Below, piece by piece: positions 3,422-51,035 of a DNA stretch of 64,000 nt. Both the position numbers and the translations under genes were made by a program. The stretch comes from Branchiostoma floridae (Eukaryota > Chordata > Leptocardii > Amphioxiformes > Branchiostomatidae), in NCBI RefSeq assembly GCF_000003815.2, contig NC_049996.1, positions 3,457,144 through 3,521,143 on the forward strand, written 5' to 3'. Within the stretch, counting starts at the first letter, position 1. The number at the start of each line of letters is the position of its first letter. Below the pieces are notes generated by a model. It was not told where the DNA came from. It worked only from the letters and a program-made list of their open reading frames with translations, and did no database searches.

Positions 3422-3980
3422 CTTACCTTCCAGTGTCTCCGCAACGCGCCTTTGTTCGATTTTGACGAGAGCTTTCTTCAGGGCCTGAAGAGTTGCAGCT
3501 TCTCCATCCCTGTTCCTCCATCTCCTCAGCATCTCCCAACACCTCCGGTCCTCATCTTTCTTCTTCCGCTCTATTCCATCTATCTGGTTCTCACTGAAGT
3601 TCAGCTTTCGAGCCAAGTTGTCCCAATGGGAACTGGCTCCATCAACAACTTTGTCGAAATACTTGTCCACATCAACTAGAACAAAAAACCATAAAACTCA
3701 GACAGTGGAAATTATAAGACGTTGTTCTCGAGATTCACATATTATTAACCTTTTCCGGGTTATCAAAAGAAAATTCTGATTTTTTAGGTGTTTGAAGAAT
3801 AAACAGATTAAAGTAGCTGCAATAGGTCTTCTTATTTGAATGTAAGTTCATCTGCGACGGTAGTTAACATAATGATATAATTCTTTAGACTTTATATGCG
3901 TACACAAAATAAAGCGCTTACCAACAAGCTTTCGACCAGTCTTCTTATTTGGTTAATACTAGGTCATCGCGATTTTCATG
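3422..3980 (-). repeat. Inverted duplication, arm 1 (death-domain exon plus intron)
   Basis: About 560 bp nearly identical, in reverse complement, to 9902-10462. It includes the complete death-domain exon, its acceptor and donor, and about 300 bp of intron. Differences are few single-base changes and 1-bp indels near the outer end. Similarity stops at the splice donor on one side and at the assembly gap on the other. Confidence 0.9.
3427..3675 (-). CDS. ROCO-like gene exon: death domain
   Basis: A 249-nt phase 1-1 exon that encodes a whole death domain: DKYFDKVVDGASSHWDNLAR, KLNFSENQIDGIER, CWEMLRRWRNRDGEAATLQA and LKKALVKIEQRRVAETLEGK. It has the W-x-x-LA-x-x-L...I-x-x-I core, the ML-x-x-W motif and the final A-L-x-x-I/R-x-x-E helix. 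Donor GTAAGC follows. Either another exon follows or translation runs 14 codons past the donor to a stop at about 3392. The symmetric phase makes this a shuffling-competent module. An almost identical copy lies inverted at 10209-10457. Confidence 0.85.
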
Positions 3981-6900
3981 GGCTTTATTTATGTGCTGTT
4001 TGGTTTGGTTTTATTTGGATCTCCATTAGTGACTAATATGTCACTAGTCCGGGTAAATGATGTAAATCACCAAATGTCTGATACGAGACGGAGGTTCGCC
4101 AGGCCTCCATCCGGGTGATTTAATTTGTAGTGAATCATCAACTCCAGACAGAAGGATTTGTACCATCGCACACCGGGGCATTTCACAAACCTCCTTCATC
4201 CATAATTTTTTAAAGTGTGATGGATCTAATTCCTTGAAACATTCATTGTTCAAGGTCCAAAACAATTTTGTTGTTGCATGTATAGATTGTACATATTCAT
4301 TGAGATACGTATATAAGTATCGTGCTTACTTAGTTAACATGACTTTATCAATACCTTGCTTTGGTGGTTTCGAGGATGGGCCACTGTTGCTGAGCTGTCT
4401 TCCACGTCGCCTTTGGCTTGTCTTCGTTTCACCTGTTATCAAGGAAAGGTGACAAAGGTAATTAAGTACAACAATTTAAAGCGTTCACTCCGGTCGTGAT
4501 AATTAGATAAATCATTTTTCAATAGCACGTTTCTATTTTGACCTTTGTACTTACTCTACTTTTTGTGGTTTGGCCTTCTTTACTAAGGATACGTTTCTCC
4601 TAATAAAGATGTGCGAAAAATTGCAAATGCCCAATCTAATAATAGCATCTGATCTAGCTTTCCCGTTACTCAATATGCCTTCTAAGATTCTATGCTATTT
4701 CTGTAATGACAGTTCTTCACCGCATCTTCATGACACAAATACCGGTACAAAACCGTTTTTTTCCAGAAAAAACGGACCTGAAAAAACCGGTGGACAGGAT
4801 GTTGGACCTATTGGAAAATGAACATATTATATGAACAGGCATTCAGATTTTTTGGGGGGGGGGGGCTACCTGTCGACGAAAATGACAGCGAAGTAGAGTA
4901 GAGTCTATTGCCATTTCTACCAACTTTTACAGTCAATTGTACGGAGGCAGTTAGCTTTGTAGGATTTCAAAACGCCAGTGGGAGTGGAATACTACACAAA
5001 TCAGATTTCTTTGTAGCTAATTGGACCATTGTTTTAAGTATTGTTCATTCACAAGTTTTCATATACTAAATCAGGTCCAGGTCCAGGTCCAGGTTCAGGT
5101 CCGGACCTGGACCTGAACGTCTGGACCTGAACCGGACCTGGACCTGAATTTCTGTACCGGTACCCACCCCTAGTCTTTACACTAAACACAAAAATTAGAA
5201 AATCGTCGTAGTCGCCGGAAAGGAAATGATAGGCCAATGATGTACCTTCGTCGAAGTAGAGGTACACGGCTGCTGATGGGATCCGGCGTCGGGGTTCAGT
5301 GACTGGTTCTCCGGACTCAGCATGATGTCGGCTGAAATGGACGACTCCTTGGCTGTACATCTTCTTGGCTGGATACGGAGGCTTCCAAATCAGCCCAACG
5401 GTGCACCTGTTGCAGTCAGCCGGCGGGAAGTAGAAGTTGATACCACCTGAAACATCTAGGGGGACGCCAATCACTTCTTGACTTTCGTCAAACTTGGCAT
5501 CTATCCTTTCTTCCTTGCCCATGACGATGCGTTGTTGAAACGGCGCAACCTTCAACATGTTGGCAGCTTGGAAAAATTCTGTTGGATCATCGTCCTTGTG
5601 AACACACATGAGGTGGATGTTGTTGTTGTCTGTTGTTGCCTTGTTTGGGTTTATGATGAGGAACACTTTGTCTTCGGTGTATCTATTCCAACATACCTGG
5701 AATGCCTCAGTTGCGTCTGCAGATGCGGATGTTGATGAAACTCTCGAAGCACTTTCTTCTGCTACCTCTTGTTTGGATGCCTCATCCTGCTGGTGACCTG
5801 GTTTTCTTGAGATACTTTCTTCTGCCGCCGCCTCATTGGCTGTCTCATCAGGGTTCCCCGATTTTGTTGTCTCATCAGGGTTCCCCGATTTTGTTTCTTC
5901 TGCTAACCACTGACTTGCTGCGTTACCCTGGTTCCATTGACCTCTTATGATGCCTTCATCTGCTGCTCCCTGGTTGTCTGACTCATCACGTTTCACCAGT
6001 TCTGTTAGGTTATTTTCTTCAGCTACCTCCTGATTGGCTGGCCCCTCCTGGTTTCCTGGACCGTCGCCACTAGAGGTAGAATTTTCGCTATCATTTCCAC
6101 TTTCTTTGGCACCGGCAATCCTAACGAAGAAAAACGAAATCAAACAAAACAAGGCGAATTATTAGATAAAGCCTATCAACAATCACATACATAGTTGCAT
6201 GAATGTATAAAAAGATTGCTGTCTATTACATCCTCCTACGCCCGGTCCCCAACGGCACTAGCCTATTGGGGCCCTGCTATCTAGATGCCTACTGGCGGTT
6301 ACTGTGATTGTCGCCACAAACTAGCTGTCAACCAACCAGAGAATAGGCCTAGCTTTCTTGGGCTTTATGTTTACGAAAGCCATCTCGCAAAGGCCGCTGG
6401 GAAGCTATCAGCCAATCCTGTTACGTGTTACATAGCTCCATCCTCCTACGCCCGATCCCCAACGGCTGACTGCCCATATAAGGGTAAGCTCATTAATATT
6501 CATAAGCAGGGCGGTCAGTAACTCATCTGAGTGCACGAGACAGCAGAGGTGACCACAAGGATCTTCGACACGACTGTGGTCCCTCTGCGTAGGAGAATGG
6601 TCTATTAAGGAGCATGCCTTACCCGCAGAAGTGTCTTGTTGTGAATGTAACTGCGTCTTCTGTCTCTTGAAAATCCAGCCTCAGTGAAGTCCACTGGGGA
6701 TGATGTGGCTTTCTCTCCATCAGGACGACTTTGTCTGCGTTGCAATCTTTCGTCCTCCATGCCCACGGCAGGGTAACTCTCACGGACTGTAAGAAATCTT
6801 CCTCCTGTTCCTGGTGCACGGTAAGTACCGGCGTCACAGCTGAGAAAGCGTTTGTTAAGCAGTCGTCAATGGGCAGCGTCTCGACCTTACAAAAAGATAA

Positions 6901-9900
6901 AACGAAATTAGTACAGCTTCTTGTCAGATTTGGAGTGACATGCAACTAAGTACATGTCATTGTAACAAAACTACACAATTGTTTATAGTTTGTACATCTC
7001 TTACCTACATATAAACCAACAAGACCTGCAACGCCTGAGTGCCATAGGCAAAATTATCATGAAGACACAAAGTAGACCAAAAGTTTACCTCCAAGGACAG
7101 GGACCTTTCCGTCTCGACGCATCCTTCTGGAAACACGAGAGTGACACCGTCCTCTTCGAGCGTGCAACCATCTGGTTTGATTGTGTACGTGTTCAGCATA
7201 ACAGAGGACGATGCCTGTTGAAACGAAAGTGATATTATGCAAAATGCCACAAAATATGTATGAGAACATGTGATCGTAATGGACGTTGCATTGTATCCAC
7301 GTACCTTCCTTAGGATTTCTGCAGCAGTAAGACTGATTTTAGTACAGGACAGGGGTTCTTCGGTCATCGGTACTTTTGTAGATGGCATATCCAGCATCCC
7401 CGCGCAGCGTCTGCCGAGCACCTTCAGCAAACGCTCCCTAGTCCCTTCAGGATAAGCGAGGACGGGAAAGACCATGTTCTTGTTCTGCACGGGGAACTCG
7501 TACCCGAGCGCGGACCAGTGTCTGCCGTGGAGAGCCTGTGGCGTGATGATTGGTACGACCATTCTGGCGTTACGTTTGAGAAGATGATCCAAGATCTTGT
7601 CAGTGATGTCATCCCCTGATTTGATGACGTCTTCGCAAACCGTGACACCGTACCTGCTGGACGACTTGACCATCTGCTCCACCAGTGGCTGTACGAGCTT
7701 GTCATCGTAGTTTTCAACGTGTAGGATAACAATGTCATTACCTAGAATTCAGAAATTGAACCATGAATACTAGTATTTGATCAATGTCTAAATAAAGTGT
7801 TAGGAAAATAAGCTGTTAATCAAGACAAAGTTAGCTATTGAATATAGAAATGGGGAATAAATCGGAAATTGTAGCAACAGAAGATGAGTTTGAAGCAGTC
7901 ATTATTACCTCTCTCTTCTCTGAGGAACATAGGTGCTCTCTCTGGTAGGCAAACTTCTACAGACGCGCCCAGCAAGCGACGACACACGTCTCCAGCATCG
8001 TTGACGGTAGCAACCAACTCTTGGAACCTGCTGACGAATGTGAGCTCGTGTCTGATTCGATCACAGTCCGCCAGATTCAGCGCTCTGCATGTCTCCATAC
8101 AGTCCAGGACTGGACCGATCGTGCGGACTGCACTGATGTCAGCTGGGCTCGTTGTGGGCTTTATCATCACTAGTCCGTCACCACCTGAGTTCTCTGCAAG
8201 TGCAAAGTGTTTCCATTAGTTAGGTAGTCTCAGGCCAGTCCTTTATCAAAGCAAACAGAATGTGTCATGCAAAATGAGAAAACAAACATGGTGTACCTGC
8301 ATGGGACATCCTTAGTGCACCGCTACCACGCATCCAGACGGCGTTAAAGTCTTCTGGAATACTGATGTTAAAACTTTCAGTTAGCAACAGTACAAATAGT
8401 ACAGTAATAGGACAGTACACAGAAAGTGATCACCCTCTTGCATGTATGGGCTGATCAATGAAAGGGTATGATTTACTAAAAAAACATGTATAATTGGCCT
8501 CACCGACTGGATCCCATTGCCGTTTCTTGCTCGATGTCAGAGAGCGGATGGAATGATAGTTTGCTCGCTCCTTCATCTGACTCCTCTCCGAAGCACCAGT
8601 CATACTGGATGGAGGGAATCCACTTCTCCTTGATCTCGAAGAGACAGCTGCTGAGAAACTTTCGAACGGGAAGTCCCTGTGTGAACACTGCCTTGTCTTC
8701 AGCTTCAGACGACAGAAGCTCCACCTTCAGGTAGTGCTTCACCTTGGTCACCACGAACTGTTGCTTTGCATCATCGGTAGGAAAGCGGCCGCAGCCTGCA
8801 AACACCTGGGACACCTCAAGACCAAACCTGCGCACACAGATCGCTTGTAGACGGTAGAACATGCCGCTGGGGAGAAACATGTTGTCGAATACAACATGCA
8901 GAGGGTACCGGAATCTGCTCATGTGCCCAGGATACAAGGTGCTGTCGTCAGACTTTGCGGCCAGAAGAGATGGTACGAAGTAGAGCTCTTCTTTCTCAGG
9001 CTCCTGCGTTGTGGCATCAAACCCACTGATCGGCGTGGCGTTGCAGATGAGGTAGTACTTCTCCATCAGTCGCTTTAGGAAGGGCTTGTTCCGGAGTAGG
9101 TAGGGTTTCTGCATCTTCTGATCTGCTTTGGTCCAGATGATTGTCAACAACCTGTCGCTGAGGATGCCTTCGTTCTCCAGCCTCCTCCACATCTCGGCGA
9201 CCTCCCCACCCATGCTCCTGTCTTGTTGGTACTTAGGGACGGTAATGATGGTCTTGAAGACGTCAACCATCACCTGGGGTCGAAGGGCCACGTGATCACG
9301 GAGGATGTGTTCGTTGATGAAGATGATGTCACCAAGGTCGTGCAGGAAGGTCAGGATGTCGGCAACATGACTGTCATCAGTGATGCCCACGTCACGGGCC
9401 AGTTCTACGGCATCTTGGAAAGGGCAGAATGGGTCGTCTTCTCCCCTCTTGTCCATCAGTTTGGACTTCAGATGAAGCCAGGTTATAGGCACTTCCTGAC
9501 CCATGTACCACTGAGACTTCGCCACCTCACGGAGGTACTCTCGGAGCTCGTCAATGTCGCTGTTATCCTCGCTGAAGTTGTCGATGACAAAAATCTTTGG
9601 TAAGACGTGTTTGCCGGCAGCCTTACCACTGATGTGATCAAGTATGTCTTTCTTGTACTCCTCAATCTCCGACTGAAAACCAAGAGCATAGACTCAGCTG
9701 ATGAAGAAATATTGATTGATTTAAATAAGTAATAAAAAAAGGCCAATTCTTTTAGCCATTGATGCGGCAAAGTGATAGCCTCCATAGCAGCTCTCTATGC
9801 CNNNNNNNNNNNNNNNNNNNNNNNNNNNNNNNNNNNNNNNNNNNNNNNNNNNNNNNNNNNNNNNNNNNNNNNNNNNNNNNNNNNNNNNNNNNNNNNNNNN

Positions 9901-12900
9901 NCATGAAAATCCGCGATGACCTAGTATTACCCAAATAAAGAAGACTGGTCGAAAGCTTGTTGGTAAGCGCTTTATGTTGTGTACGCATATAAAGTCTAAA
10001 GAATTATATCATTATGTTAACTACCGTCGCAGATGAACTTACATTCAAATAAGAAGACCTATTGCAGCTACTTTAATCTGTTTATTCTTCAAACACCTAA
10101 AAAATCAGAATTTTCTTTTGATAACCCGGAAAAGGTTAATAATATGTGAATCTCGAGAACAACGTCTTATAATTTCCACTGTCTGAGTTTTATGGTTTTT
10201 TGTTCTAGTTGATGTGGACAAGTATTTCGACAAAGTTGTTGATGGAGCCAGTTCCCATTGGGACAACTTGGCTCGAAAGCTGAACTTCAGTGAGACCCAG
10301 ATAGATGGAATAGAGCGGAAGAAGAAAGATGAGGACCGGAGGTGTTGGGAGATGCTGAGGAGATGGAGGAACAGGGATGGAGAAGCTGCAACTCTTCAGG
10401 CCCTGAAGAAAGCTCTCGTCAAAATCGAACAAAGGCGCGTTGCGGAGACACTGGAAGGTAAGACAAAAGGCCATAGAGAGCCTGCTATGGAGGCTAGCAA
10501 AGTGAAAGCTTGCTAGAAACACAAGCGCACCCCCTATCCGTGTCTAATTGAACAAAGACGAGTGACAAGACCTCAGAGTAAGTTGTGATTTCTTCTAATG
10601 CATAAACCAAAGGTTGGATCTACTTTGAAATCAGGAATATATGATCTAGGAAAACACAGGTTCAAGTCATAGTTTTAGATTGAAGAATTTCATGTAGGGT
10701 TAAGTTGAAAATAAATTAACGACGTGCTAGATACCTCGGTGACCATATCCTTGTGTGTGAGGACCAAGACGATAGGTGGCTTGTCCTTCCGTCCGTGCAC
10801 CAGACCGTGTGTGCGGACTGAGTTCAGCCAGTGGTCCAGGTAGTCTGAACAGGTACGCAAACGCTTATATCAGTCTCACCATTTCAATAATCATACACCA
10901 GGCAGGCTACGAAAGGTAATTCAAGTTCAATTTCAGTGCCTATGCTCGGGCAAATTTAAGCTTTCACAGTCTAACGGTACCGGTAAGCTCTCGTTTACCG
11001 TCATAAAATGACATTCAACAGAAGGGGTACCTACCTCTTCCAGTGACGAGGTTGTCCGCAGCTGCCTTGTAGTCCTGATCAGGAACTGGGTCTGACAGCT
11101 TCTGCAGCAGTGACATGACCAGGATGTAGATCCCGCGGGGGGTGAAGAAGCACTGGTGCGAGCCGTAGTACGTGGCCTGGCCGCCGAAGTCCCAGATGGA
11201 GAGACGCGGGTGTTCGGCTGTTCCTAGCTGCTCCTCGGTTACGCCACCTTGGAGTCGCTCTTTGGCCTTTGTTATGACGTCATCAGGAATGTCTTGTGTT
11301 TGCTGCTGTACTGTGTCATCTTGTAGTCGCTGTTGGTGCTGTGATTGATGTGATGTACCCTTGCCTGCACTTTCTGCTCTACCTGGAAAGAAATCTTTTA
11401 TGTTTTAATTGATCTTACTCGAAATGCAAAGAATGTGCCTGGACGATCTTCAGCTAGCCCCTTTCAAGGTGGTAACTTCTGGTTTTCCTGTAGGAACTAC
11501 CGCTCGAGTATTTGGCTCGAGACCAAGAGGTCGCGGGTTCGAATCCAGCTGCCGTGTCACCGATCTTGTGCTCTTGGGAAAAGCACTTTACACGACTTTC
11601 CTCACTATACTCAGGTGAAAATGAGTACCAAGCTTCGGCTAGGGCCGTCCCATAGATAGGACGTTAAATGGAGGTCCTGTGTCTGGGAAGAGCCATACCC
11701 CGGGCACGTTACAAAAACCCCACACGTGCGATGGTGCGGTGTGAGATGGTGCAAATCTTTCCGTCTAGAATTGGTGATTCTCCACAAATCACCCGGACTC
11801 CAGGAAGAATAGTGACATATAGTCACTAATGGAGATCTGTATAACCAAATCCAAATCAAACCAAACCAAACTACCAACTCAATCTGCTACTGGTGAACGT
11901 CGTTAAGCCTCAAAGGCAGAAAACATATCGAAGAACAACATTGAATATTAACAACTTATTTTAAACTACACTGTCCAGGTCTATGTTTCTATTGTGCATT
12001 TCTAACTAATTGAGAAATGTAGATAAAAAAGTTTCTTACTACTCTCTTCCAGCGTTTCAGTCTGTTGATTTTGTGTCTGTTCCTTACTATCTTCCATATT
12101 TGCTGTCTGTAGACTTCGTGACGGTGTCTCCTCTTTTAGTGGTTCATTTTTCTGCGTCTGAAACGTCTGCTCTCCTGTTTCTTCCTTTGGTTTTTGAATC
12201 CCAGCATCTTATGTGAACAAGATGAAACCAGTAAGACATCAATGGTACTCTAAGTCTTCCAATGTTCCTAAAAATCGAACCATACCAATGCGAATGACCA
12301 TGCGAATGTAGCTGCCATCCTTCTTGTCCTATATAGCTATACATACAGTATATGTGGACTATCAAGCTTTTATGGTTCGTCTTGTCGCTTGCTTGATCCT
12401 CTACGTTGACATTAGTGCTCTGTGTACAAATCATGCTATGATAGACGTCAGCGTCATTACATACCCGTTGGGGTTTTGCTGTCACTCTGCTGCTGGACTA
12501 CTTCTTGGGGTTGTGACATTGTCAGCCTGAGGGTTACTGATTTGTCCCGTTCTTGTTGCTCCGCTAAGCGTTCTGCCATGGTTTCCTTGAACTCGTCTGG
12601 CTCCTCTGTAATCAAAACGTTGTGTATTGCACATTATCATATAGCCAGGGGACGTTGACAAATCAGAAGTCCCCATTTCATGTTGGTTATGACGTCATAA
12701 CACATGGAAAATAATTTAACAGCATTAAATAGTTTCATTAACACACGTGTGTTAATGATTTCGGAAAGCTTGAGCCAATCAGAAAGACAGACACGCAGGA
12801 CTCAATCAGAATGAGAGATACATGAATCAGAATAGCACAGAGCTAGGAGGAAAGACCTGACCCCGGAGGGAGGAATGATCATGAATACAGTTAATGAATA

Positions 12901-15900
12901 CAGGAGTTTGCAAGTTTGTGTAGGCTATATAATAATAACGTTAATGACACGCCTGTTCCTCGGTGTACATGGTGTCATAACGCCTGGCCCTTTGCTATAA
13001 CCACCTAATAAAACAAGGTGGATTCATTCGATGGTTATGGCAAAGGACCAGGCGTTATCACACCATATACACACCTCGGGGCGGGTCATTAACCCTTAAT
13101 TGTTGTAGCTGAGGCTATTTTAATAATTTCATTTCCAACTATGACATTTTAAGACCCAATGTTTTGTAATATACAGTTTTCAAGAATTTGTAAGATATCT
13201 GAAAAAAAAACGAGTACCTATCATGGCATAGCATGTGTTGATATGTCCATACAGCAATCAAATTTCGGACCTTTTGCCTTCTGCCAAGTTGTGGTCATCA
13301 CGCTCGGTGAAATCTCGATGCCGTCTGTTATCGGTTCATCCTCCACAGCCTCCTCTCCTGTCAGCCTCCTGACGACGCAAGTCTTCCCGGATCTGTACTG
13401 ACCAACCACGAGCCCGCGCGTGCTGTGCACCGGTCGCGCCCCCTGGCGGCAGGCCTGGGAGTACAGCTGTTGCATGCCAGGACCACGCAGCTGTATTTCC
13501 AGTGGAACACTGCTGTCTTCTGTTTGTCTGCTGTTTCCCTTCATGATAATACAAACTGGTTAACGTTCTTAACATGATAAAAGCTGTTTAAAGCGTACGC
13601 CATACACACATGTATGATAATCTCCAAGCAGTAGCATATACGTACCTGATTTTCCCACAAAAAATACATGGAGTATGTATACACTGTATATAGAGCACCT
13701 GAACATGATAGTTACAGCTGCAAAGCACGCGTAGTGGAAAAATGGTACACGGTAGTGTGCTAGTATGGATATATATCAGAACATACGGGCCCTGCTTTTT
13801 CGGAGTCAAGAGCACTCAGCGGAGTTTGTGTGAACAGAAATTCAGAGTACTTATCTACCCTACTCCTGGATTTGACTTGAGTAACTTCGAAATCATACTT
13901 CTCGCTCTTGGGGTGATGTCAAGTAGCGTTTTCTTATGTCCAACTTCGAGCCGCAACTCCCGTTGAGTTAAGTAAGCTTCAGCGGAGTGTACTCCAAGTC
14001 GACTGGAAACACACTCTCACTCACTCACTCACTCACTCACTCACTCACTCACTCACTCACTCACTCACTCACTCACTCACTCACTCACTCACTCACTCAT
14101 TGAATCAATCAGAGAGAAAGAGAGAGAGAGATGGTTTATTGCCCTTGACATTAAAAACTCTTGCAGCACATTAAAAAAGGCTGAATTGTCGTTTTCTTTA
14201 CAGTCAGTATTTCAACCTCTAACTAGTTAACGCAATTAAAAGGATTGAGTGACAAAATAACATCCACTTGTTTACAATAACTGGTCAGTTATTACACAAA
14301 GAAACATTCACTACTGATTACAAATTACCCGTCTTGGTTCAGCAGCTTTACACAGTACGGTAATGGGCTATTAGCGAAACGAGCAGTTCTACACCGGAAG
14401 TGGGAGAGTTTGTCTTTGTTTCTTAGTGACCTGTCATGGGTATCCCCTCGTCTAGATGGAAGCCAATTACTGAATTTTTCAGAGTTGACAAGAGTTCGTG
14501 CAAACACTCTCTAAATCACTCAGCCACACACCCACACAATCACTCACTCACTAAATCACTCACTCACTCACTAAATCACTCATCCACTCACTAAATCACT
14601 CATCCACTCACTCACTCACTCACTCACTCACTCACTCACTCACTCACTCACTCACTCACTCACTCACTCACTCACTCACTCACTCAGAAAGTCACTCAGA
14701 AGGTCACCGCAGTGGTCGTATGGGCTTCACGAAAGCAGGCAGTAGTGATCCATCGAAAATCGAAAACTCAGCCTATTATAATTGTGCGTGACGTTTAACA
14801 CCCAACATGTCAAACGTCTATAGTATTCATCAACCCTTATATCTAAACCCTTACCTCATCCCTACTTGCCGCCTCTGCACCAGCCTTCATGAGAAGTTCA
14901 GCAACACCAACATGTCCTCTTGAAGTTGCCTTGTGAAGTGGCGTGGCTCCAGACTGTAACAATAAGGAATACAGACGATGTACAATAGCAAGTGAACTCA
15001 TTATCATAATAAACATGAATGTGAAGTTTAACACTCAAATATACCAGTCACCAGTACTTAAGCAACCACCCTTACCTGATCCTTACTGTCCACATCTGCT
15101 CCAGCCTCCAGGAGGAGTTCGACAACACCAGCATGTCCTCCTGAAGCTGCCTCGTGAAGTGGTGTGGCTCCAGACTGTGAATGTAAGGGATAGAGATGAT
15201 GTTAGGTAGCAAGTGAAGCTTTTCCATGATAAAAAAATAAGGTAAATTTGCGTGACGTCACCAGTAGGAATTAGGAATCCTTACCTCATCCGTACTGTCC
15301 ACCCGTGCTCCAGCCTTCAGGAGGAGTTCAACAACACCAACATGTCCTTCTGAAGCTGCCTTGTGAAGTGGCGTGCGCGTGGCTCCAGACTGTAACAGTA
15401 AGGAATAGAACAACAACAAGCATGGGCGGATCCAGGATTTTGCAAAGGGGGGGGGGGGCGCATATGCTGTTGTAGCTCAGGTCGTGGGCTGAACATTTGA
15501 TATAACGTTAATAAACGAACGAACACTGATTTTTATAGTTAGCAATCACATTCAACAATCATATTTTTGGCCTGGGGGAACGGCCATCGAAACATTTTTT
15601 TTGAGCCGGGGGGAGAGCCATTTGAAAAAAAATTGCCTTAGGGGCCTTAAAAATACAAGCAAAATGTGCCCCTGAAATGCAGGAAATGAAGTTTCATGTG
15701 GTCAAGATTTCAATTTTTCTTTGGACGTCTCTAGCGACGGCTTGCGCCTCCGGCGCCCACGACGCTCCGGTGCTCGTCGCCATCAAAAATCTTTTCCCCT
15801 GACAGAAATGTCATTACATTTAGCATAGTCTACCAGCAAAGTTTATCCCTCAAAGTGCAGAAAATCCTGTTTCAGAGGGTCAAATTTCAACATTTTTCTC

Positions 15901-21900: not shown

Positions 21901-24900
21901 ACAGTCGAATTTTCTTCTTTTGGTACGAAACACCCTTCTGCCTTCTTCCAGCTGGCCGGTATGCTGCCCTTAACCCAAATTCGTCGGAGCAACCTCCACA
22001 GTCTTCGCAAGAGCAGGGGACATTTCGGGCCTGGAGCTGACGCTGCTCTGGCTTTCCTTACGACTTCCTGCACTTCCTTCCATGATGGTTCGCTAATGTT
22101 GAGAGGCTTCTCTGGTTTGTCTGCCACTTCTATGCTTGGATTAGCTTCAAGGGCTGCGTCTTTGAGCTCGTCGTTGTGTGTACTACTCAAAAACTCCTCG
22201 ACTTCATCTTTGGAACTGGTCAGCTGCCCTGACTTAGCTTCACCCAACAGGGTCTTTGTGAATTTGAATGGGTCTTTGATGAACTGCGCCCTCCTATTCA
22301 TCCTCTCTTTCCTGTTCTTTCTTATGCTTTCTGCTTTTCGTAGTTTGCACAGACGGTAGCGGAGCCTCTCTAGGCACCTTCTGTACTGCTTGTTCAAACC
22401 CTTAATCTCCTTCCTTAATCGCTGGATTTCACGCTCCCTTCTGTTTGGCTGCTTTGCAGTGCAGGGCTTCTTCTTTTTCCCTTCCACAAAAAATATAATG
22501 TCACAAACGGGAAAGTGGCGTCGGTTGTATAAAAGACAAAGGATCCCGGTCTGCTGTCAAACAACAACACTCACTTTAACCCCTACTTCACCAACTTTGA
22601 TTTATTTCTGTGTGTTTTAGTAAAATTTAAATCTTTTCTGTAATTTTCAAGTAAAGAACTCCAGACGTTTACCGCGTATATAAATCCGATACATTCGGCA
22701 CATTGATTCAAACAGGGCGTCGGTTTGTAAACAAACTGGAGGGCCGACCAGTCTAATCCAGCTTCCCCGTCAAATAATCCCCTTTCTTCCCAAGAGTTTG
22801 ATTTACATTATCTGCTTTATTACAAGTTGCATTTATAGAGATGTGGCTTTTTTATTTCAATTTTCTTATCAAAGATGCCAGAACTGGCGGAAGGTTAACG
22901 TTACCATGCATGTCGAACGCAAGCCGACACATTTAACAGCGGCTTGTGCTCTGTTACCGCCCGTATTGAATCACACGAACTGTAGTTCATTGTAGAACAT
23001 GGGTGTAAGGAGTTATCAGAAAGAATACGTCATTGAATCGGAAAGCGAAGGTTGATATTTCCGAGGCGTTGATTATTGATAGAACAGGACAGGGCCAGAG
23101 TCAAGCCGATAATTTAACAGACGAGTACAGTTCTCAATGAAGGGCGCAAATATGTAGCAAGAGGAGTGTTGCTTCCATGGATGTGTTTTGAAAACAAAAT
23201 GTATACAAATAGTCGACTTCCTCGACAAACTATCCGTACTCTGTCGGTTAATTTTATGTGTGTTTAGCGCAGATATAATGTACGTAGGGAAGAACGGATT
23301 TTGTTTACAAATGGCGACGTGTTCCGCGCGATCTCGGCGACCGCGCGGGGAAGGCCCCGGGAATGTCGGAAATTGATATTTCCTTGCATGACTCAGTTTC
23401 GGTATTTTATAAATATTGGTGGCAGAATACACAAAAATACAGCAAAGAAGGGACTGAGAGGGCTGTGTCCGTAAGACGCGTCATCGTGGGAATGACTTTG
23501 AAAGCTTGGGTATTTTTTACTGTGCTGAGATAGGCGTGCATTTGAAAGGGGAGTTCGCGGGAAAAATTCTGCTGGTCTAAGTGCGAATAAAACATTTCTA
23601 GTTTCCGCCCGCAAAGGTGTGAACCAATCAGCTACTGTTGCCATTAGTGAAATGGGTGATTGACATTGATTCTGCATGAATATGCATGCTTTTAAGATAG
23701 AATTTTTAGGGCCTTTTTAGACCATCGTGATAACCTAAAAAAGTGGATACAGAATAAATCTTAAAACTCTTCTAATTAAACAACATACGATAATAAGAAA
23801 ACATCCATACAATCAGGTGGGGTTTAACATGCGTGTCACTATCTTTTCTAATCACAAAGCAACCTTTTATGTATTTACCTATCTTAGCATTATGAGGGCT
23901 GTCGGGTCTAAAGACATTGTCAAATCTACTTCTATCAAGTATCGTAAGATCTGTAATGTTTAGACATAGGAATGTGAATAACTTATCTCGTAACATAATG
24001 GAGATGATGTTAGATATAAAATGAAGTCTTTTCAAGTAAATTTGCGTGAAGTTTAACTCTAAACATGTCATCAACAGTAGTAAGCATCAACCATTACCTC
24101 ATCCCAACTGTTCACCGGTGCTCCAGCCTCCAGGAGGAGTTCAGCAACACCAACATGTCCTGCATAGTGAAGTGGCGTGGCTCCAGACTGTGAAAGTAAG
24201 GAATAGAGATGATGTTAGAGAGCAAGTCATATCGTCACACTATGTGTGTGGCGTTTAACACCCAAAAATATCAATCACCAGTAGAAATCATTAACCCTTA
24301 CCCGATCCCTACTGTCCACCCGTGCTCCTGCCTTCAGGAGGAGTTCAGTAACACCAACATGTCCTCCTAAAGCTGCATAGTGAAGTGGCGTGACTTCAAA
24401 CTGTGACAGTCAGGAATAGACGTGATGTTAGATAGCATTATCATAATACAATTGGCATGCATAACTTTTAACATTCAAGCACGCCAAACACCCTTATCAT
24501 ATGGTCGTCTTTGTTTGGATCATAATGCACTTTTACTGGGTCGCTTGACCGGGGCCAATTCTCAAAAAGAAATTACCAGCAAAAATGTATTATGAACCCA
24601 AAAAAAGACGGAAGAAGGCCCCAAAGGGTCTGCTACGAAGGCTAGTAATAGGCTAACCCCAACATACTTAACACTAAACATGCGTGGCGATAGATACTCA
24701 GATAAGCCTTGGAGATCGCGTGGTGCAGCGGCAGCGTGTTTGGCTCAGGATTTTTTTTGCATAGAAGTGCACTTCACAAATGCACACATGGATTCAATAA
24801 CACTGTTGGCATACAGTACAACAAAAGGCGTAATTTTGAGATTTTATTGCGATTTGTTGACAAAAAAAAGGACACTTTTGGCTCCTGTGCATTAGTTTTG

Positions 24901-25689
24901 CAACCAAATGACCTAAACTTTGGTACAGGGGTGCACTAGATATTCATTCAAGTGACCCCTGTATTATATATGGCATGAACCACTTCAAAACGATTTTGGG
25001 GTCATTTTCCGATGGCCACAGAGGGTCAATGACCTCAAGGTCGTTGACCCATTTTAAGGCTTTCTGACTTGCATATCTGTATGCCAATGTAACTTAATTA
25101 AAAAGGTAACCAATCGCATAGCCCGAATCAATATCGTGAGGAGGATTTGGCTGCCAATCAGTGAGCTCGGTGTTATGTGGAAGAGTCCATTGTTACACGG
25201 AGGGGTTCATTTAAAAAAAATATTCATCTTTGGACTGGGGATTATGGAAAGTCTTTCAATGGGTGTATTTTTGGACTGGCATATTTGCAGTTTTACATGG
25301 TGGGGGCTGGAAGAGTCCATTCTTGCACGGAGGGGTTTTTTTTTAAAAGTCATATTTTGGACTTTAGTATGTCAAAGTCATTAGTAAAAGTGATTTTCCA
25401 AATGGGTAATTTTGTTGTTGCACATGGAGGGAGATGGCTGAAATATGCTGTATTTGCTCTCAAGCAGGTTTTGATTTTCATTGCAACGACCCTACGTTTT
25501 TTTACCACCATATATGAACAAAACATCAATCATTGCTTTCATTTGTTGGAGTAGAGCTAGCTAGCCCAAACAGATTATCAGACAACGGAAGACACATACA
25601 AACAAGAAGCGATCATTAGGATTGACCCCCTCCGCTAACAGCTGCTTCACTCTGTCCGTGTCTCCTTCCCCTGCAGCCTCCCACAGATC
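3427..25689 (-). CDS. Ankyrin-Roc-COR-CARD-like-TIR-like-ZU5-UPA-Death protein (multi-exon gene, partial)
   Basis: Twenty exons on the minus strand can be chained: 25689-25600, 24400-24302, 24187-24098, 15389-15285, 15174-15076, 14953-14855, about 13538-13271, 12605-12465, 12207-12040, 11382-11035, 10844-10735, 9672-8504, 8361-8297, 8193-7909, 7741-7305, 7214-7089, 6885-6623, 6120-5246, 4432-4355 and 3675-3427. All have AG/GT borders, and the codon phases match at every junction from the Roc P-loop exon to the end. The product is at least about 1,720 residues: ANK (about 1-194), Roc (about 195-570, with an insert), COR (to about 930), CARD-like (950-1045), TIR-like (1045-1190), ZU5 (about 1200-1320), UPA (about 1450-1610) and Death (1638-1720). 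ANK-Roc-COR-Death recalls DAPK-type ROCO proteins; ZU5-UPA-Death recalls PIDD and UNC5. It is probably a cytosolic scaffold that controls assembly of death-fold complexes by GTP binding; that role is inferred. The 5' start and possibly the final exon are missing. Confidence 0.8.
3985..4065 (-). mobile_element. SINE 3' end fragment
   Basis: Reverse complement of the tail seen at about 11800-11870 (TAGTGACATATAGTCACTAA, GGAGATC, then CCAAATCCAAATCAAACC). Only the 3' end is clear, and related sequence may continue to about 4180. Confidence 0.65.
4355..4432 (-). CDS. ROCO-like gene small Ser/Pro linker exon
   Basis: A 78-nt phase 1-1 exon (ATAACAG acceptor, GTATTG donor) reading ETKTSQRRRGRQLSNSGPSS then KPPKQ. 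In this phase it joins UPA (YFDEG) to the death domain (VDVDKYFDK). It is a short basic Ser/Pro linker. Support comes from splice sites and phase only. Confidence 0.55.
4739..5173. mobile_element. MITE-like element with GTACCGGTAC ends, copy 1
   Basis: About 435 bp, paralogous along its length to 47541-48000. Shared blocks are AAAACCGTTTTTTT, GGACCTGAAAAAA, ACCATTGTTTTAAGTAT, CATTCACAAGTTTTCA and TTTCTGTACCGGTACCCAC. Near the right end it has a run of AGGTCC hexamers that can fold back. It sits in the intron between the UPA and linker exons, with a truncated left end. Confidence 0.75.
5246..6120 (-). CDS. ROCO-like gene exon: acidic linker and UPA domain
   Basis: An 875-nt exon. The first 130 residues are an acidic Gln/Glu/Ser-rich linker with imperfect repeats (an 8-residue KSGNPDET unit occurs twice back to back, and EVAEE/AAEES recurs). 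The remainder follows the UPA pattern of PIDD: DKVFLIINPN, NIHLMCVHKDDD, GKEERIDAKFDE, SGGINFYFPP, and a closing strand GVVHFSRHH. Acceptor GTTAG; donor GAAG|GTACAT is chosen because it gives the phase needed by the linker and death exons. Reading past this donor runs into a MITE and gives a spurious proline/glycine tail. Confidence 0.75.
6226..6513 (-). repeat. Dispersed repeat, inverted partner of 1-272
   Basis: Reverse-complement copy of the 5' segment, in the intron between ZU5 and UPA exons. It contains two TCCTCCTACGCCC boxes, one at each end, and GGCCGCTGGGAAGCTATCAG. The pair brackets the 3' part of the gene. Confidence 0.7.
6623..6885 (-). CDS. ROCO-like gene exon: ZU5 domain, C-terminal half
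   Basis: A 263-nt exon starting VETLPIDDCLTNAFSAVTPV, matching the D-D-x-x-T-x-L-S-P-V strand of UNC5/PIDD ZU5, then SVRVTLPWAW (the P-V-x-x-T-x-P-H position) and AVTFTTRHFCG. The last residues lie where autoprocessing ZU5/FIIND domains (PIDD, NLRP1, CARD8) carry His-Phe-Ser; here it is His-Phe-Cys. The exon ends phase 2 at GTAAGG and joins the UPA exon through a Gly codon. Confidence 0.85.
7089..7214 (-). CDS. ROCO-like gene exon: ZU5 domain, N-terminal half
   Basis: A 126-nt phase 0-0 exon encoding ASSSVMLNTYTIKPDGCTLE then EDGVTLVFPEGCVETERSLS. The pattern G-x-x-L-x-x-x-G-V-x-L-x-x-P-x-G is the diagnostic start of ZU5 as in UNC5, PIDD and ankyrins. CAACAG acceptor and GTAAAC donor; it joins the second ZU5 exon with no phase change. 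Confidence 0.85.
7305..7741 (-). CDS. ROCO-like gene exon: TIR-like domain
   Basis: A 437-nt exon encoding about 146 residues. The opening strand DIVILHVENYDDKLVQPLVE corresponds to TIR box 1 and helix A; YGVTVCEDVIKSGDDITDKI corresponds to strand B and the BB-loop region; NARMVVPIITPQALHGRHW then ALGYEF corresponds to strand C and the W-x(4-5)-E segment. The spacing and order fit TIR or TIR-2 folds. The Glu after Trp lies where NAD-cleaving TIRs keep their catalytic Glu, but whether this copy is an enzyme or an adaptor cannot be told. Donor GTACGT, acceptor CTAG, phases agree with both neighbours. Confidence 0.72.
7909..8193 (-). CDS. ROCO-like gene exon: CARD-like helical domain
   Basis: A 285-nt exon (95 residues) between TTGCAG and GTAATA. 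The stretch from DISAVRTIGPVLDCMETCRA through DCDRIRHELTFVSRFQELVA and DAGDVCRRLLGA has the hydrophobic spacing of a death-fold (CARD or related) six-helix bundle: a leading helix, an acidic turn with x-x-I, then R-F-x-E-L-V and G-x-x-x-x-R-x-L-L. The resemblance is by eye and moderate; a plain helical linker is the alternative. It sits between COR and the TIR-like domain. Confidence 0.5.
8297..8361 (-). CDS. ROCO-like gene small linker exon
   Basis: A 65-nt exon with ACATCAG acceptor and GTACAC donor, encoding IPEDFNAVWMRGSGALRMSH. The incoming single base completes Arg with the COR exon, and the outgoing G makes Glu with the next exon, so the phases agree on both sides. No domain is recognisable. 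Confidence 0.7.
8504..9672 (-). CDS. ROCO-like gene exon: end of Roc and COR domain
   Basis: A 1,169-nt exon. It starts with the last Roc helix and strand (DHISGK...PKIFVIDNFS), then LREYLREVAKSQWYMGQEVP leading to WLHLKSKL, the usual Roc-COR junction. The COR signature FLHDLGDIIFINE followed by LRPQVMVDVFKTII is the winged-helix motif seen in LRRK2, DAPK and MASL1 (L-L-H-x-x-G...P-Q-W-L). The rest matches COR-B in length and pattern (PSLLAA, PLHVVFDNMFLPSGMFYRLQ). In this family COR mediates dimerisation next to Roc. It ends phase 2 at GTGAGG and continues in frame into the 65-nt exon at 8361-8297. Confidence 0.9.
9802..9901. other. Assembly gap (100 N)
   Basis: Exactly 100 N, a conventional unknown-size gap. 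It sits in the intron between the COR and Roc G4 exons, directly next to the inverted death-exon copy. The reading phase across it is consistent, so contig order appears right for the gene. Confidence 0.98.
9902..10462 (+). pseudogene. Inverted extra copy of the death-domain exon and intron
   Basis: Plus-strand copy of 3422-3980. The exon at 10209-10457 is intact (AG acceptor TGTTCTAG, donor GTAAGA), with one visible residue change, SET for SEN in helix 3. It lies antisense in an intron of the ROCO-like gene, so it cannot be spliced into that transcript. No other plus-strand exons are recognised nearby. It could be a duplicated orphan exon or an assembly product of haplotype mixing. Confidence 0.75.
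10735..10844 (-). CDS. ROCO-like gene exon: Roc domain G4
   Basis: A 110-nt exon encoding DYLDHWLNSVRTHGLVHGRK and then PPIVLVLTHKDMVTE. THKD is the G4 guanine-specificity motif (N/T-K-x-D type), and the preceding W-L-N-S-V helix is standard for Roc. It ends in phase 0 and joins the COR exon as VTE|SEIEEY. The intron after it (10734-9673) holds the assembly gap and an inverted extra copy of the death-domain exon. Confidence 0.88.
11035..11382 (-). CDS. ROCO-like gene exon: Roc domain G3
   Basis: A 348-nt phase 1-1 exon. The first 60 codons continue the Q-rich insert (QSQHQQRLQDD), followed by an amphipathic segment (ITKAKERL) and then the core Roc strand RLSIWDFGGQATYYGSHQCF. WDFGGQ is the G3/switch II motif characteristic of Roc rather than Ras-like GTPases. 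The strand FFTPRGIYILVMSLL follows, as in other ROCO proteins. GTAGGT donor and TTCCAG acceptor. Confidence 0.88.
11485..11870 (+). mobile_element. tRNA-derived SINE
   Basis: A polymerase III B-box-like GGGTTCGAATCC occurs near 11536, followed by the conserved core TTGGGAAAAGCACTTTACAC and GACTTTCCTCAC, which is also present in copies at 44.8 and 56.8 kb. The tail holds CAAATCCAAATCAAACC repeats. It lies in the intron between two Roc exons. Confidence 0.75.
12040..12207 (-). CDS. ROCO-like gene exon: Glu/Gln/Thr-rich insert in Roc, part 2
   Basis: A 168-nt phase 1-1 exon encoding AGIQKPKEETGEQTFQTQKN and onward through repeated E-T and Q-T pairs (QNQQTETLEE) with no fold signature. The donor is GTAAGA, and the overhanging A plus GT from the next exon makes a Ser codon. 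Both neighbouring exons join without frame change. It is a low-complexity acidic segment, probably a linker inside the split Roc domain. Confidence 0.7.
12465..12605 (-). CDS. ROCO-like gene exon: Glu/Gln-rich insert in Roc, part 1
   Basis: A 141-nt phase 1-1 exon between TTACAG and GTATGT splice sites. It encodes EEPDEFKETMAERLAEQQER followed by DKSVTLRL and a Gln-rich stretch. It falls between the G2 and G3 motifs of Roc, where ordinary Roc domains have only a short loop. It is predicted to be helical or disordered and is probably a surface insert. Confidence 0.7.
12939..13093. mobile_element. Palindromic MITE
   Basis: GTTAATGACACGCC at the left is matched by GGCGGGTCATTAAC at the right, and the inner arms (ATAACGCCTGGCCCTTTGC and GCAAAGGACCAGGCGTTAT) pair almost perfectly. 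It is a 155-bp fold-back in the intron between the Roc G1 and insert exons. Confidence 0.8.
13271..13538 (-). CDS. ROCO-like gene exon: Roc domain G1/G2 (P-loop)
   Basis: This exon encodes the first part of the Roc GTPase: GLVVGQYRSGKTCVVRRLTG with the P-loop GQYRSGKT, then EPITDGIEISPS, where the Thr before DGI is the usual G2/switch I residue of ROCO proteins. The segment before it (LYSQACRQGARPVHSTRG) is the typical Roc entry strand. The 3' border AAAAG|GTCCGA is a weak donor, but it gives the single-base overhang needed by the next exon (GAG, Glu). The 5' border is uncertain; an acceptor at GAAG before GGAAAC is in phase with the ankyrin exons. Confidence 0.8.
14015..14695. repeat. Two (TCAC)n arrays with intervening sequence
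   Basis: (TCAC)n runs occupy about 14015-14098 and 14600-14690, with degenerate TCAC/CCACTCACTAAA between about 14520 and 14600. The middle (14130-14500) is ordinary intronic sequence with no supported gene. Confidence 0.9.
14855..14953 (-). CDS. ROCO-like gene exon: last ankyrin repeat
   Basis: A 99-nt phase 0-0 exon, SGATPLHKATSRGHVGVAEL then LMKAGAEAASRDE. It is the last ankyrin exon before the Roc domain. CAG acceptor and GTAAGG donor are present. The next recognised exon is about 1.3 kb downstream, across two (TCAC)n arrays, so a linking exon could have been missed. Confidence 0.85.
15076..15174 (-). CDS. ROCO-like gene exon: ankyrin repeat
   Basis: A 99-nt phase 0-0 exon, SGATPLHEAASGGHAGVVEL then LLEAGADVDSKDQ: a textbook 33-residue ankyrin repeat. 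CAG acceptor and GTAAGG donor. The start lies 221 bp from that of the next exon (14953) and 215 bp from that of the previous one (15389), and the intervening introns resemble each other. Confidence 0.87.
15285..15389 (-). CDS. ROCO-like gene exon: ankyrin repeat with two-codon insertion
   Basis: A 105-nt phase 0-0 exon, SGATRTPLHKAASEGHVGVV then ELLLKAGARVDSTDE. The extra Arg-Thr arises from a 6-bp duplication (CGTGCG-type) just before TPLH. It is otherwise canonical, with GTAAGG donor and CAG acceptor. It is the first ankyrin exon after the roughly 8.7-kb repeat-filled intron, and its sequence is nearly the same as exons on the far side of that intron. Confidence 0.85.
15424..16945. mobile_element. 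About 1.5-kb repeat element with G-rich, GGATCCAGG-type ends
   Basis: The left end GGGCGGATCCAGGATTTTGC is followed by a G run. The right end, in reverse complement, gives GCGGATTTAGGGGTGGGGGG with a matching G run and GCGCCCC. The ends look like degenerate inverted repeats of a DNA element inserted in the ankyrin intron. It contains no open frame with transposase signature. The boundaries are approximate. Confidence 0.5.
16946..18099. other. Intronic sequence without recognised feature
   Basis: No exon, RNA gene or clear repeat pair is seen. One short direct duplication (TTAGCCTATTTTCA...AGCAGGAAAATGTA) is visible around 17137-17203. Confidence 0.5.
18100..18985 (-). mobile_element. 5'-truncated R2-type LINE fragment (restriction-like endonuclease end)
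   Basis: The minus strand encodes the C-terminal part of a non-LTR element: RPDLFLWSDSQKTVFIIELT, then VPWEE, then ERKKLKYEDLREQCKQNGW. This is the D...E-L-T-V-P-W-E...K-Y pattern of a PD-(D/E)xK restriction-like endonuclease. The same block is present in the longer copy at 19.7-20.1 kb. A frameshift separates it from the upstream segment ending in VEDVSR, and no reverse transcriptase is present. Confidence 0.75.
19500..22490 (-). mobile_element. Degenerate R2/NeSL-type LINE: reverse transcriptase, CCHC and restriction-like endonuclease
   Basis: Read on the minus strand: a basic N-terminal region and RT entry (22487-21861, AASAPGP and EGCFVPKEEN); RT palm with VWLDLANAYGSIPH and GIVTGCTISPNLF (21777-21424); the catalytic FMDD box in GFMDDITLTT (near 21380); a thumb/connection region (21178-20477); the zinc motif CKLCGDRGTMAHILSSC, i.e. 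C-x2-C-x7-H-x4-C (about 20360); and the endonuclease DMVIWSEERKKIIVIELTV then PWEE with ERKASKYQEL (20060-19940). These six blocks fall in three frames with stops between them, so the copy is dead. Domain order and a C-terminal nuclease place it with R2/NeSL/HERO-like elements. It inserted in the ankyrin intron in the same orientation as the gene. Confidence 0.85.
22491..24097. other. Intronic sequence without recognised feature
   Basis: No supported exon. Around 24000-24090 the sequence resembles the introns that separate the ankyrin exons (GAGATGATGTTAGAT...TTTAACTC). Confidence 0.5.
24098..24187 (-). CDS. ROCO-like gene exon: shortened ankyrin repeat
   Basis: A 90-nt phase 0-0 exon reading SGATPLHYAGHVGVAELLLE then AGAPVNSWDE. 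Compared with its sisters it lacks three codons (the A-x-x residues between LHYA and GHVG), so the first helix is shortened. The frame and both splice sites (CAG acceptor, GTAATG donor) are kept, so it may be expressed as a distorted repeat or be on the way to decay. Confidence 0.75.
24302..24400 (-). CDS. ROCO-like gene exon: ankyrin repeat
   Basis: A 99-nt, 33-codon, phase 0-0 exon encoding one complete ankyrin repeat (TPLHYAALGGHVGVTELLLK followed by AGARVDSRDR). The TPLH turn, the GH-V-G-V-x-ELLL second helix and the terminal D-x-x-D loop are canonical. It begins FEV in place of the SGA start of its sister exons. CAG acceptor and GTAAGG donor flank it. Confidence 0.85.
24690..25560. repeat. 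Dispersed repeats upstream of an ankyrin exon
   Basis: At 24830-24960 there is one unit related to the 162-bp array at 33.6-34.3 kb (GACACTTTTGGCTCCTGT, CAACCAAATGACCT). At 25170-25340 a unit with GAAGAGTCCATTGTTACACG / GGAGGGGTT is repeated. ATGGCTGAAATATGCTGTAT near 25430 recurs at about 36850. Short open frames here are repeat derived. Confidence 0.6.
25600..25689 (-). CDS. ROCO-like gene exon: first visible ankyrin repeat (capping type)
   Basis: The exon reads DLWEAAGEGDTDRVKQLLAE then GVNPND, the usual start of an ankyrin array, with a charged first helix and the V-x-x-LL-x-x-G-x-x-x-N pattern. The acceptor is CTCTACAG. The donor is probably GTATGT, which gives a 90-nt phase 0-0 exon matching the next ankyrin exon in phase. 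An initiator exon was not found upstream; the sequence beyond it is soon (AC)n repeat. The donor position is the least certain part. Confidence 0.6.
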
Positions 25690-50560: not shown

Positions 50561-51035
50561 TGCTTGTTTACAATGTAACAGAAGGATTATCGTAACTTTG
50601 GCAGAAAATCCCTTACCCGTGCAACAAAGAACTGTATTGTCCATTTTTTTGTAGTAACCTGATGAAAGTATTGACTGATAAGAGCTTTGTTTACAAGTAT
50701 GCATTGTGTACCAAAATGCCAAGTGCCAGCAAATGATCCTTCTATGGTAGTCAAAGCGTGACCGAGCGCTTGCAGGTGTTTCTTTTATCACATCGACTCA
50801 TTTTTTTCTAGTTTTGTGCCGCACTTATGTTACGGATGCAGAACTTGAGTCTGACATTTGAAAAATTTGTTTACAGAGAGAAAACGCTCGTAAGTAGACA
50901 GTTATTTACACTACAGTCGACGGTCACATCGAAGGCAGTGAGTGGGTTTGTGTTCCTGGCAGCATTCTGTAACAACTACTATGTAGGGATTATCTGAACC
51001 AGGTTGTCGGGATAATATTCTTCTCTCCAGAACCA

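Follow-up and report, generated by a model that had tools for sequence, protein, structure and literature searches.

What is encoded by a lancelet gene in which a ROCO core is joined to CARD-like, TIR-like, ZU5 and Death exons, and what kind of work would such a protein do? Most of what is known of ROCO proteins comes from LRRK2 and DAPK1, and the latter has the order ANK-Roc-COR-Death, which is also that of the present gene apart from insertions. The gene lies in a stretch of 64,000 nucleotides of Branchiostoma floridae DNA (NC_049996.1, positions 3,457,144 to 3,521,143), referred to here as the window, and an initial annotation had read it as a ROCO protein fused to a PIDD-like ZU5-UPA-Death tail. 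The reading that best accounts for the locus, with about an even chance of being right, is that of a GTP-switched, ankyrin-sensing innate-immune ROCO scaffold whose tail cassettes can be exchanged, which would be an animal counterpart to the bacterial Roc-COR conflict proteins.

The starting point is the gene itself. Twenty minus-strand exons in agreeing phase, running from 25689 to 3427, give an open product of 1,721 amino acids without a stop, with the predicted domain order ANK-Roc-COR-CARD-TIR-ZU5-[UPA position]-Death. The exons are as follows.

25600..25689, minus: E1, first recognised exon, partial ankyrin unit (DLWEAAGEGDTDRVKQLLAEGVNPND); phase 0, AG/GT, 3' boundary tentative
24302..24400, minus: E2, ankyrin repeat; phase 0-0
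24098..24187, minus: E3, ankyrin repeat; phase 0-0, 9 bases shorter than E2, E5 and E6
15285..15389, minus: E4, ankyrin repeat; phase 0-0
15076..15174, minus: E5, ankyrin repeat; phase 0-0
14855..14953, minus: E6, ankyrin repeat; phase 0-0
13271..13538, minus: E7, Roc GTPase with P-loop GQYRSGKT, by Pfam; 5' boundary tentative, acceptor not kept in C18b and C10
12465..12605, minus: E8, Roc insert in the interval between P-loop and WDFGGQ; phase 1-1, tblastn match in 6/6 other close copies (in T3 of only 18 amino acids)
12040..12207, minus: E9, low-complexity Roc insert; donor picked by phase, match in T1, T2, T3 and C18b, none in C10 and C12
11035..11382, minus: E10, Roc with WDFGGQ; by motif and Pfam
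10735..10844, minus: E11, Roc with THKD; by motif
8504..9672, minus: E12, COR; Pfam COR-A 9.4e-14 for E12 with E13
8297..8361, minus: E13, linker; match in T1, T2, T3 and C18b, none in C10 and C12
7909..8193, minus: E14, CARD-like; Pfam CARD 0.0022, under cut-off, and PDB matches of the family profile
7305..7741, minus: E15, divergent TIR without the catalytic Glu (Gly at Trp +4); by profiles through intermediates
7089..7214, minus: E16, putative first part of ZU5, GVTLVFPEGCV; profile alignment E 0.0051, probability 7
6623..6885, minus: E17, putative second part of ZU5, HFC at its end; by motif
5246..6120, minus: E18, low-complexity linker and UPA-position domain (UPA identity putative); by position
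4355..4432, minus: E19, linker; phase 1-1, match in T1, T3 and C12, none in T2, C18b and C10
3427..3675, minus: E20, Death domain; phase 1, Pfam Death 3.9e-19, a donor following

An AG precedes and a GT follows each of the 20 exons (40 of 40 splice dinucleotides, the exon bounds having been chosen so), and the five motifs that had been picked out beforehand (GQYRSGKT, WDFGGQ, THKD, FLHDLGDIIFI and GVTLVFPEG) all recur in the spliced product. When each exon interval was moved at random by up to 400 bases, none of 2,000 products was free of stops (mean 73, minimum 30). Chance open frames were rejected on this control as the source of the product; it shows only that so long an open product rarely arises by chance; the real test of the gene model lies in its conserved copies.

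Where, then, are these copies and how closely do they agree? Exon-wise searches of the 513-Mb, 431-contig assembly, whose counts are lower bounds, return seven close copies of the TIR-like exon, the window's own included. Four stand in tandem on contig C18, at 3390191 (T1), 3414969 (T2), 3441388 (T3) and 3464448 (the window), and the others lie elsewhere on C18 (C18b), on contig C12 and on contig C10. The six other close copies are 63-92% identical to the window's TIR-like exon, and ten more are 37-43% identical. Neighbourhoods were examined for the seven close copies and for three of the ten more distant relatives (L040, L041 and L042). By tblastn, the Roc, COR, CARD-like, TIR-like, ZU5 and UPA-position exons keep their order and strand in all seven close copies, and the order is the same in L040 and L042, whose TIR exons are about 40% identical; the third relative, L041, has no COR in the 10 kb examined, a stretch with gaps. 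Across 12 exons (leaving out the ankyrin exons, E8 and E9) splice dinucleotides agree in equivalent position and phase at 136 of 138 sites, or 112 of 114 without the window's own, the two disagreements both being the E7 acceptor, in C18b and C10.

These data bear directly on whether two adjacent genes, an ANK-Roc-COR gene and a CARD-TIR-ZU5-Death adaptor gene, have been read as one. Agreement in phase counts for little against this by itself, since phase-1 junctions are frequent. A break between COR and TIR is nevertheless very unlikely because the introns there are short (142, 103 and 167 bases), the order (in the seven close copies, L040 and L042) and the splice sites are conserved, and COR-A lies upstream of TIR-like exons elsewhere in the genome. 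For 13 of the 17 strong TIR-like exons, Pfam places a COR-A match on the same strand no more than 5 kb upstream, and the count with COR upstream rises to 15 of 17 once tblastn is added (for C10 and L042). The counts took 17 of the 34 rows of the TIR-like search (E <= 1.2e-14), dropping the 17 weaker, and all 84 COR-A exon matches, including those under cut-off; 65 are over it, 8 of these only with neighbours in frame. The genomic evidence thus contradicts the break at which the initial annotation had thought its single gene might fail, and the single gene stands on its in-phase product, its short introns and the exon order kept in the copies.

The claimed span of 3427..25689 holds for the exons and fails for completeness. 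Having no start methionine, the exon at 25689 is not the opening exon of the gene, and, given also the splice donor after the Death exon, the gene may extend beyond both ends. The tandem copies have E1-like exons (C18:3400270, 3425556 and 3448895), and the GT donor after Death is found in the window, T1, T3, C10 and C12. No start-codon exon and no terminal exon emerged from an unsystematic inspection by eye and in the open frames. A terminal exon could sit near the low end of the window, because several kb there read N, and a read-through ending is possible because a stop occurs 11 codons past the Death donor in the window and T3.

Two of the introns hold other elements. The 8.7-kb intron between E3 and E4 contains retroelement fragments (20480-21831, minus strand), one piece of which matches reverse transcriptase (Pfam RVT_1) at 5.1e-07 with the piece beside it giving no match. 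The intron between E11 and E12 carries an inverted copy of the Death exon (10211..10456, plus strand; 98.8% amino acid identity) about 300 bases from an assembly gap, which is due either to a recent inverted duplication or to an error of assembly.

Is the gene then a decaying pseudogene? Its few ankyrin exons (5 matches, where two of its tandem neighbours have 11 and 10), the reverse transcriptase match in its long intron, the inverted Death copy and the start and stop that were not found would suit such an account. Set against it are 1,721 codons without stop or frameshift, the intact splice dinucleotides and dN/dS ratios of 0.14-0.42 relative to the three tandem neighbours, and decay is accordingly judged improbable. 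Over nine pairs the Nei-Gojobori ratio lies at 0.14-0.57 in every domain wherever it can be computed, taking for each exon its best tblastn piece (in C10 this covers 118 COR codons); the UPA-position exon is saturated in the two C10 pairs, and pairs with T2 or C18b have no Death to compare. By these ratios the core is under purifying, not diversifying, selection. The C10 copy may itself be broken because its COR falls by tblastn into two pieces with a frame change in between.

What the exons encode is clear to different degrees. For the whole product Pfam returns Ank (3.2e-42), COR-A (1.6e-12), Roc (7.2e-11) and Death (5.5e-17) over cut-off and CARD below it (0.0022-0.0043), with no direct match to TIR, ZU5 or UPA. 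The profile check proposed with the initial annotation therefore succeeds for the first four domains; TIR is reached through intermediates, CARD stays under cut-off, ZU5 is weak and UPA fails. Of the two domains whose absence from profile searches would have counted against the initial annotation, TIR is recovered in this indirect way and UPA by no profile. The ankyrin repeats come one per phase-0 exon, with 5 exon matches in the window, 11 in T1, 10 in T2 (one partial) and 8 in the surroundings of T3, where two follow the E1-like exon and six precede it and the order of units is ambiguous. Roc is followed directly by COR, both over the Pfam cut-off, which places the product in the ROCO family, as do its GTP-binding motifs (GQYRSGKT, WDFGGQ and THKD), predicted from the sequence; control of assembly by GTP, as had been proposed, is plausible.

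For the CARD-like exon, a family profile of 9 copies gives ten PDB matches, all ten to CARD-bearing chains (ASC, Apaf-1 and CARD8), each at E 0.53-0.81, and among the relatives Pfam finds CARD in L040 at 0.029 and not in L042. These matches are consistent with a CARD in E14, as a weak assignment.

The TIR assignment has a longer route. Direct Pfam scanning finds TIR in one of 11 family members (E 0.011), and single members also give weak matches to Pico_P2B (0.14, two members), CcdB (0.031), Acetyltransf_4 (0.17) and Redoxin (0.25) and to the PADLOC model E2 (0.0082). When the family profile is run against the PDB, five of 14 matches are TIR chains (E 0.59-1.0), with seven ATG7 and two histamine methyltransferase chains ranking above them (E 0.17-0.47). 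The window's exon, by comparison with its own genome, finds 17 weaker relatives (E 3.3e-5 to 9.3e-4), four of which (5.2e-5, 8.1e-5, 1.6e-4 and 9.2e-4) served as intermediates. Both of the two intermediates that were scanned pass Pfam TIR_2 (3e-11 and 6.5e-12), the profile of the four reaches bacterial TIR structures at 3e-14, and the family profile aligns with that of the intermediates over 136 columns (probability 98.1, E 1.1e-13, a single comparison). Through these intermediate true TIRs, the identification of E15 as a divergent TIR is supported. A single-sequence AlphaFold2 model of the exon was unusable (mean pLDDT 44.3, pTM 0.43), and Foldseek with it returned no match at E <= 0.001.

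Does this domain retain an activity? The glutamate four residues after a conserved tryptophan is the catalytic residue of TIR NADases such as SARM1 and the bacterial effectors. E80 is invariant in the four intermediate TIRs and aligns with the WTNYE of AbTIR, and the family has G, A, T or D at the position in 11 of 11 members and glutamate in none. Because the catalytic position is lost throughout, the TIR of this family probably serves assembly and not NAD cleavage, as a catalytically dead domain, and an enzymatic complex of the TIR type becomes unlikely. Some other acidic residue could in principle make it an active NAD-cleaving effector, for instance the invariant glutamate two positions on, in a YE motif (Y80 and E81 in 11/11 members), a case rendered improbable by the residues found at the site aligned to the bacterial glutamate.

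The domains behind the TIR differ markedly in how well they can be named. The G-V-x-L-x-F-P start and HF(C) end of E16-E17 resemble, by eye, the ZU5s of the same genome; a profile alignment with these is in register over 67 columns (E 0.0051, probability 7), and a small profile of 8 local ZU5s scores the window's at 3.5 bits. Pfam gives no ZU5 match in the six copies scanned and the PDB no relevant one, so that ZU5 is a weak, candidate assignment. The UPA domain of the initial annotation finds no backing in profiles: there is no Pfam match in six of six copies and no relevant PDB match, hhalign aligns 14 columns at probability 0.2, and a single-sequence AlphaFold2 model of this part was unusable (mean pLDDT 34.6, pTM 0.23). 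The name is unproven and is one of position. The Death exon is secure, its Pfam match (3.9e-19) being over cut-off and its PDB matches including FADD (4.7e-08), RIPK1 (8.3e-08) and Death domains of ankyrins.

How far does the gene resemble the proteins after which its parts were named? As compared with DAPK1, which has an N-terminal kinase, ANK, Roc, COR and Death are all found, no kinase appears among the Pfam matches to a model that has no N-terminal exon, and CARD, TIR and ZU5 stand between COR and Death in the window's gene; a plain DAPK orthologue was rejected on account of these three extra domains. With PIDD1 the gene shares a ZU5, a UPA-position domain and a Death domain at the C-terminus. 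PIDD has HFS self-cleavage sites at its ZU5 ends, whereas here the ZU5 ends in HFC in six of the seven close copies and in QF in C10. An HFS within the UPA-position domain was weighed as a possible site of PIDD-like cleavage but discarded, being absent in T1, C10, C18b and C12. The domain set given for PIDD, in the available text of PMC9573974, is LRRs, two ZU5, UPA and Death; the window's gene has no LRR match in the Pfam scan, one ZU5 and not two, and a putative UPA. A PIDD orthologue is thus ruled out, and the label 'PIDD-like' finds no support.

The copies part company at their C-terminal ends. A Death exon follows the UPA-position exon in five of the seven close copies (the window, T1, T3, C10 and C12), and a GT4-type glycosyltransferase exon takes its place in the other two (T2 and C18b), which have no Death behind the tail in the stretches examined. 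The UPA-position exon ends in phase 1, and a phase-1 acceptor opens GT4 and Death exons alike. In T2 the exon is a full-length match to Pfam GT4-conflict (1e-65; 222.7 bits versus 64.1 for Glycos_transf_1), and it is 86.7% identical to that of C18b. The relative L042 is followed by a third GT4 start. For the window's own Death exon no GT4 exon turned up behind it, the T2 GT4 protein matching only T2's own exon in the C18 stretch examined. The word 'conflict' is a label and not proof because the model is broad, passing its cut-off in 14 of 14 control genomes too.

Genome-wide, 57 of 102 GT4 candidates were scored, T2's being outside those 57. A scored GT4 exon lies within 15 kb downstream on the same strand of seven of the 17 TIR-like exons, or eight with T2. 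Taken from the GT4 side, COR-A falls within 10 kb of the 57 exons upstream on the same strand in 16 cases, downstream in 3 and on the opposite strand in none, the figures at 15 kb being 20, 7 and 0. Contig C3 (31.9-33.3 Mb) and contig C191 carry COR-A clusters with same-strand GT4 exons, a second ROCO-GT4 group, and a TIR_2 exon (4e-13) at C18:16197835 on the plus strand, about 6 kb past the GT4 exon of C18b, perhaps belongs to another immune gene.

Other ends and fronts vary as well. In L040 TPRs come first and a Death exon immediately follows TIR, with a FIIND match over cut-off (2.5e-7) in its tail; C10 has a second Death exon; and a Death match of 34% in C18b sits upstream of the Roc exon and does not follow the tail. 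Within the tandem array (C18:3380000-3484000), dS between T1 and the window is 0.09-0.20 for Roc, COR, CARD and TIR and 0.27 for Death, as against 0.86 for ZU5 and 2.5 for the UPA-position exon, and DNA identity runs at 89% over E12-E16, 75% in E17, 69% in E18 and 86-92% in E19 and E20. On these values T1 is a mosaic, in which either the ZU5-UPA block would have been exchanged or the flanks converted. The Roc-COR core is constant among the paralogues and the C-terminal domains differ, the pattern of the bacterial conflict systems in the available text of PMC8195603, and copies that share a core with different ends suggest immune receptors swapping their working ends.

How might such a receptor work? 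In the preferred reading of an immune scaffold, the ankyrin repeats, as interchangeable phase-0 exons, would bind a ligand or guard a host protein, and binding would alter the nucleotide state of Roc-COR and cause dimerisation or opening of the molecule. The opened molecule could then expose the CARD and the catalytically dead TIR for higher-order assembly, with the ZU5-UPA-position block locking or presenting the C-terminal module. A Death tail would recruit Death-domain partners (FADD- or RIPK-like) into signalling of the cell-death or NF-kB type, and the sister genes that end in a GT4-type glycosyltransferase would make the tail an exchangeable output slot. The claimed domain order, the CARD-like and TIR-like exons and the idea of an immune or cell-death type ROCO protein have all gained support here.

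A related and more tentative account, well short of an even chance, treats the genes as a cassette family in which ankyrin exons make up a shufflable sensor, Roc-COR-CARD-pseudoTIR is the fixed core, the ZU5-UPA block can be replaced, and a slot entered in phase 1 takes Death or GT4 as the output. The core would assemble on GTP switching, Death would signal to the cell, and GT4 would be a GTP-gated enzyme modifying invader or host molecules. It is made slightly less probable because the GT4-conflict model also matches the control genomes.

Might the gene have nothing to do with immunity? Ank, ZU5, UPA and Death co-occur in ankyrins and ZU5-UPA-Death in UNC5, and a developmental or cytoskeletal ROCO scaffold, making stable contacts as in ankyrins, UNC5 and DAPK and present as plain tandem duplicates, would be in keeping with these, with the ankyrin Death domains among the PDB matches and with selection on the domains that is purifying and not diversifying. 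This is unlikely, in that the combination of CARD, TIR and GT4 tails is typical of immunity and conflict systems, the GT4 exons follow COR-A in orientation (within 10 kb, a same-strand COR-A precedes 16 of the 57, and none has it on the opposite strand), and both repeat number and tails differ between neighbouring copies.

The preferred reading of an immune ROCO scaffold has relatives in print. The bacterial Roc-COR (AP-GTPase) conflict proteins are described, in the text available of PMC8195603, as having one core and variable C-terminal effectors that include TIR and GT4, with several paralogues able to occur in one bacterium; the same source names DAPK1 as the metazoan AP-GTPase homologue and records GT4 with TRADD-N in cephalochordates. 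Shared with the gene are a repeat sensor, a Roc-COR switch and a C-terminal slot with differing effectors. The repeats there are N-terminal LRRs, in contrast to the ankyrin repeats found here (TPRs in L040), and in the animal genes a CARD-TIR block and then a ZU5 block come before the tail, which is Death or GT4. In the accessible part of PMC9334734, Aplysia has ROCO-TIR proteins, some MyD88-like, which share Roc-COR with TIR, a Death-like domain being expected in the MyD88-like members; the main text of the article makes no mention of ZU5, and CARD, UPA and GT4 are not named there for the ROCO-TIRs. The alga Chondrus has a TPR-ROCO-TIR protein, and brown-algal LRR-ROCO genes shuffle single-repeat exons, according to the available sections of PMC11378527. 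The ROCO-TIR fusion (of Chondrus), the arrangement of one repeat per exon and the proposal of immune receptors are thus held in common, and CARD, ZU5 and a GT4 tail are not named in those sections. The same article counts as many as forty ROCO domain combinations in animals, one of which may include the present architecture. Amphioxus itself has domain-shuffled death-fold and TIR proteins (PMC2575513, in the text available), which likewise combine CARD, Death and TIR in new ways; as whole words, none of Roc, COR, ZU5 and ankyrin is present in that main text.

The full architecture is not described among the matches listed, in a search that had few subscription journals and left figures and supplements outside, and for ROCO together with ZU5 the sole match was PMC8195603, with 'Roco' in its reference list alone. 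The earlier statement that no protein with the full set had been described is borne out within those matches, with published relatives in kind: ROCO-TIR fusions are already known, and their combination with CARD, ZU5 and Death or GT4 tails was not found there.

Why would such a family matter? If the tail is an effector slot, one conserved switch would link bacterial conflict systems and animal cell-death receptors, and the tandem array would offer a model of receptor evolution by exon exchange; if the cassette account is true, a chordate would be using the design of the bacterial Roc-COR conflict systems. The 84 COR-A exon matches, some wired to CARD, TIR, Death or GT4, would be natural experiments on Roc-COR control, in which the tail differs and the switch stays.

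Elsewhere in the window, three long open frames lie in a row on the plus strand (48037-49140, 50973-52097 and 54378-56252); they look coiled-coil by eye, match no Pfam family over cut-off and may form a small tandem family. At 1260-1550, short tandem repeats with 'catacaaatcgacaaat' are visible by eye.
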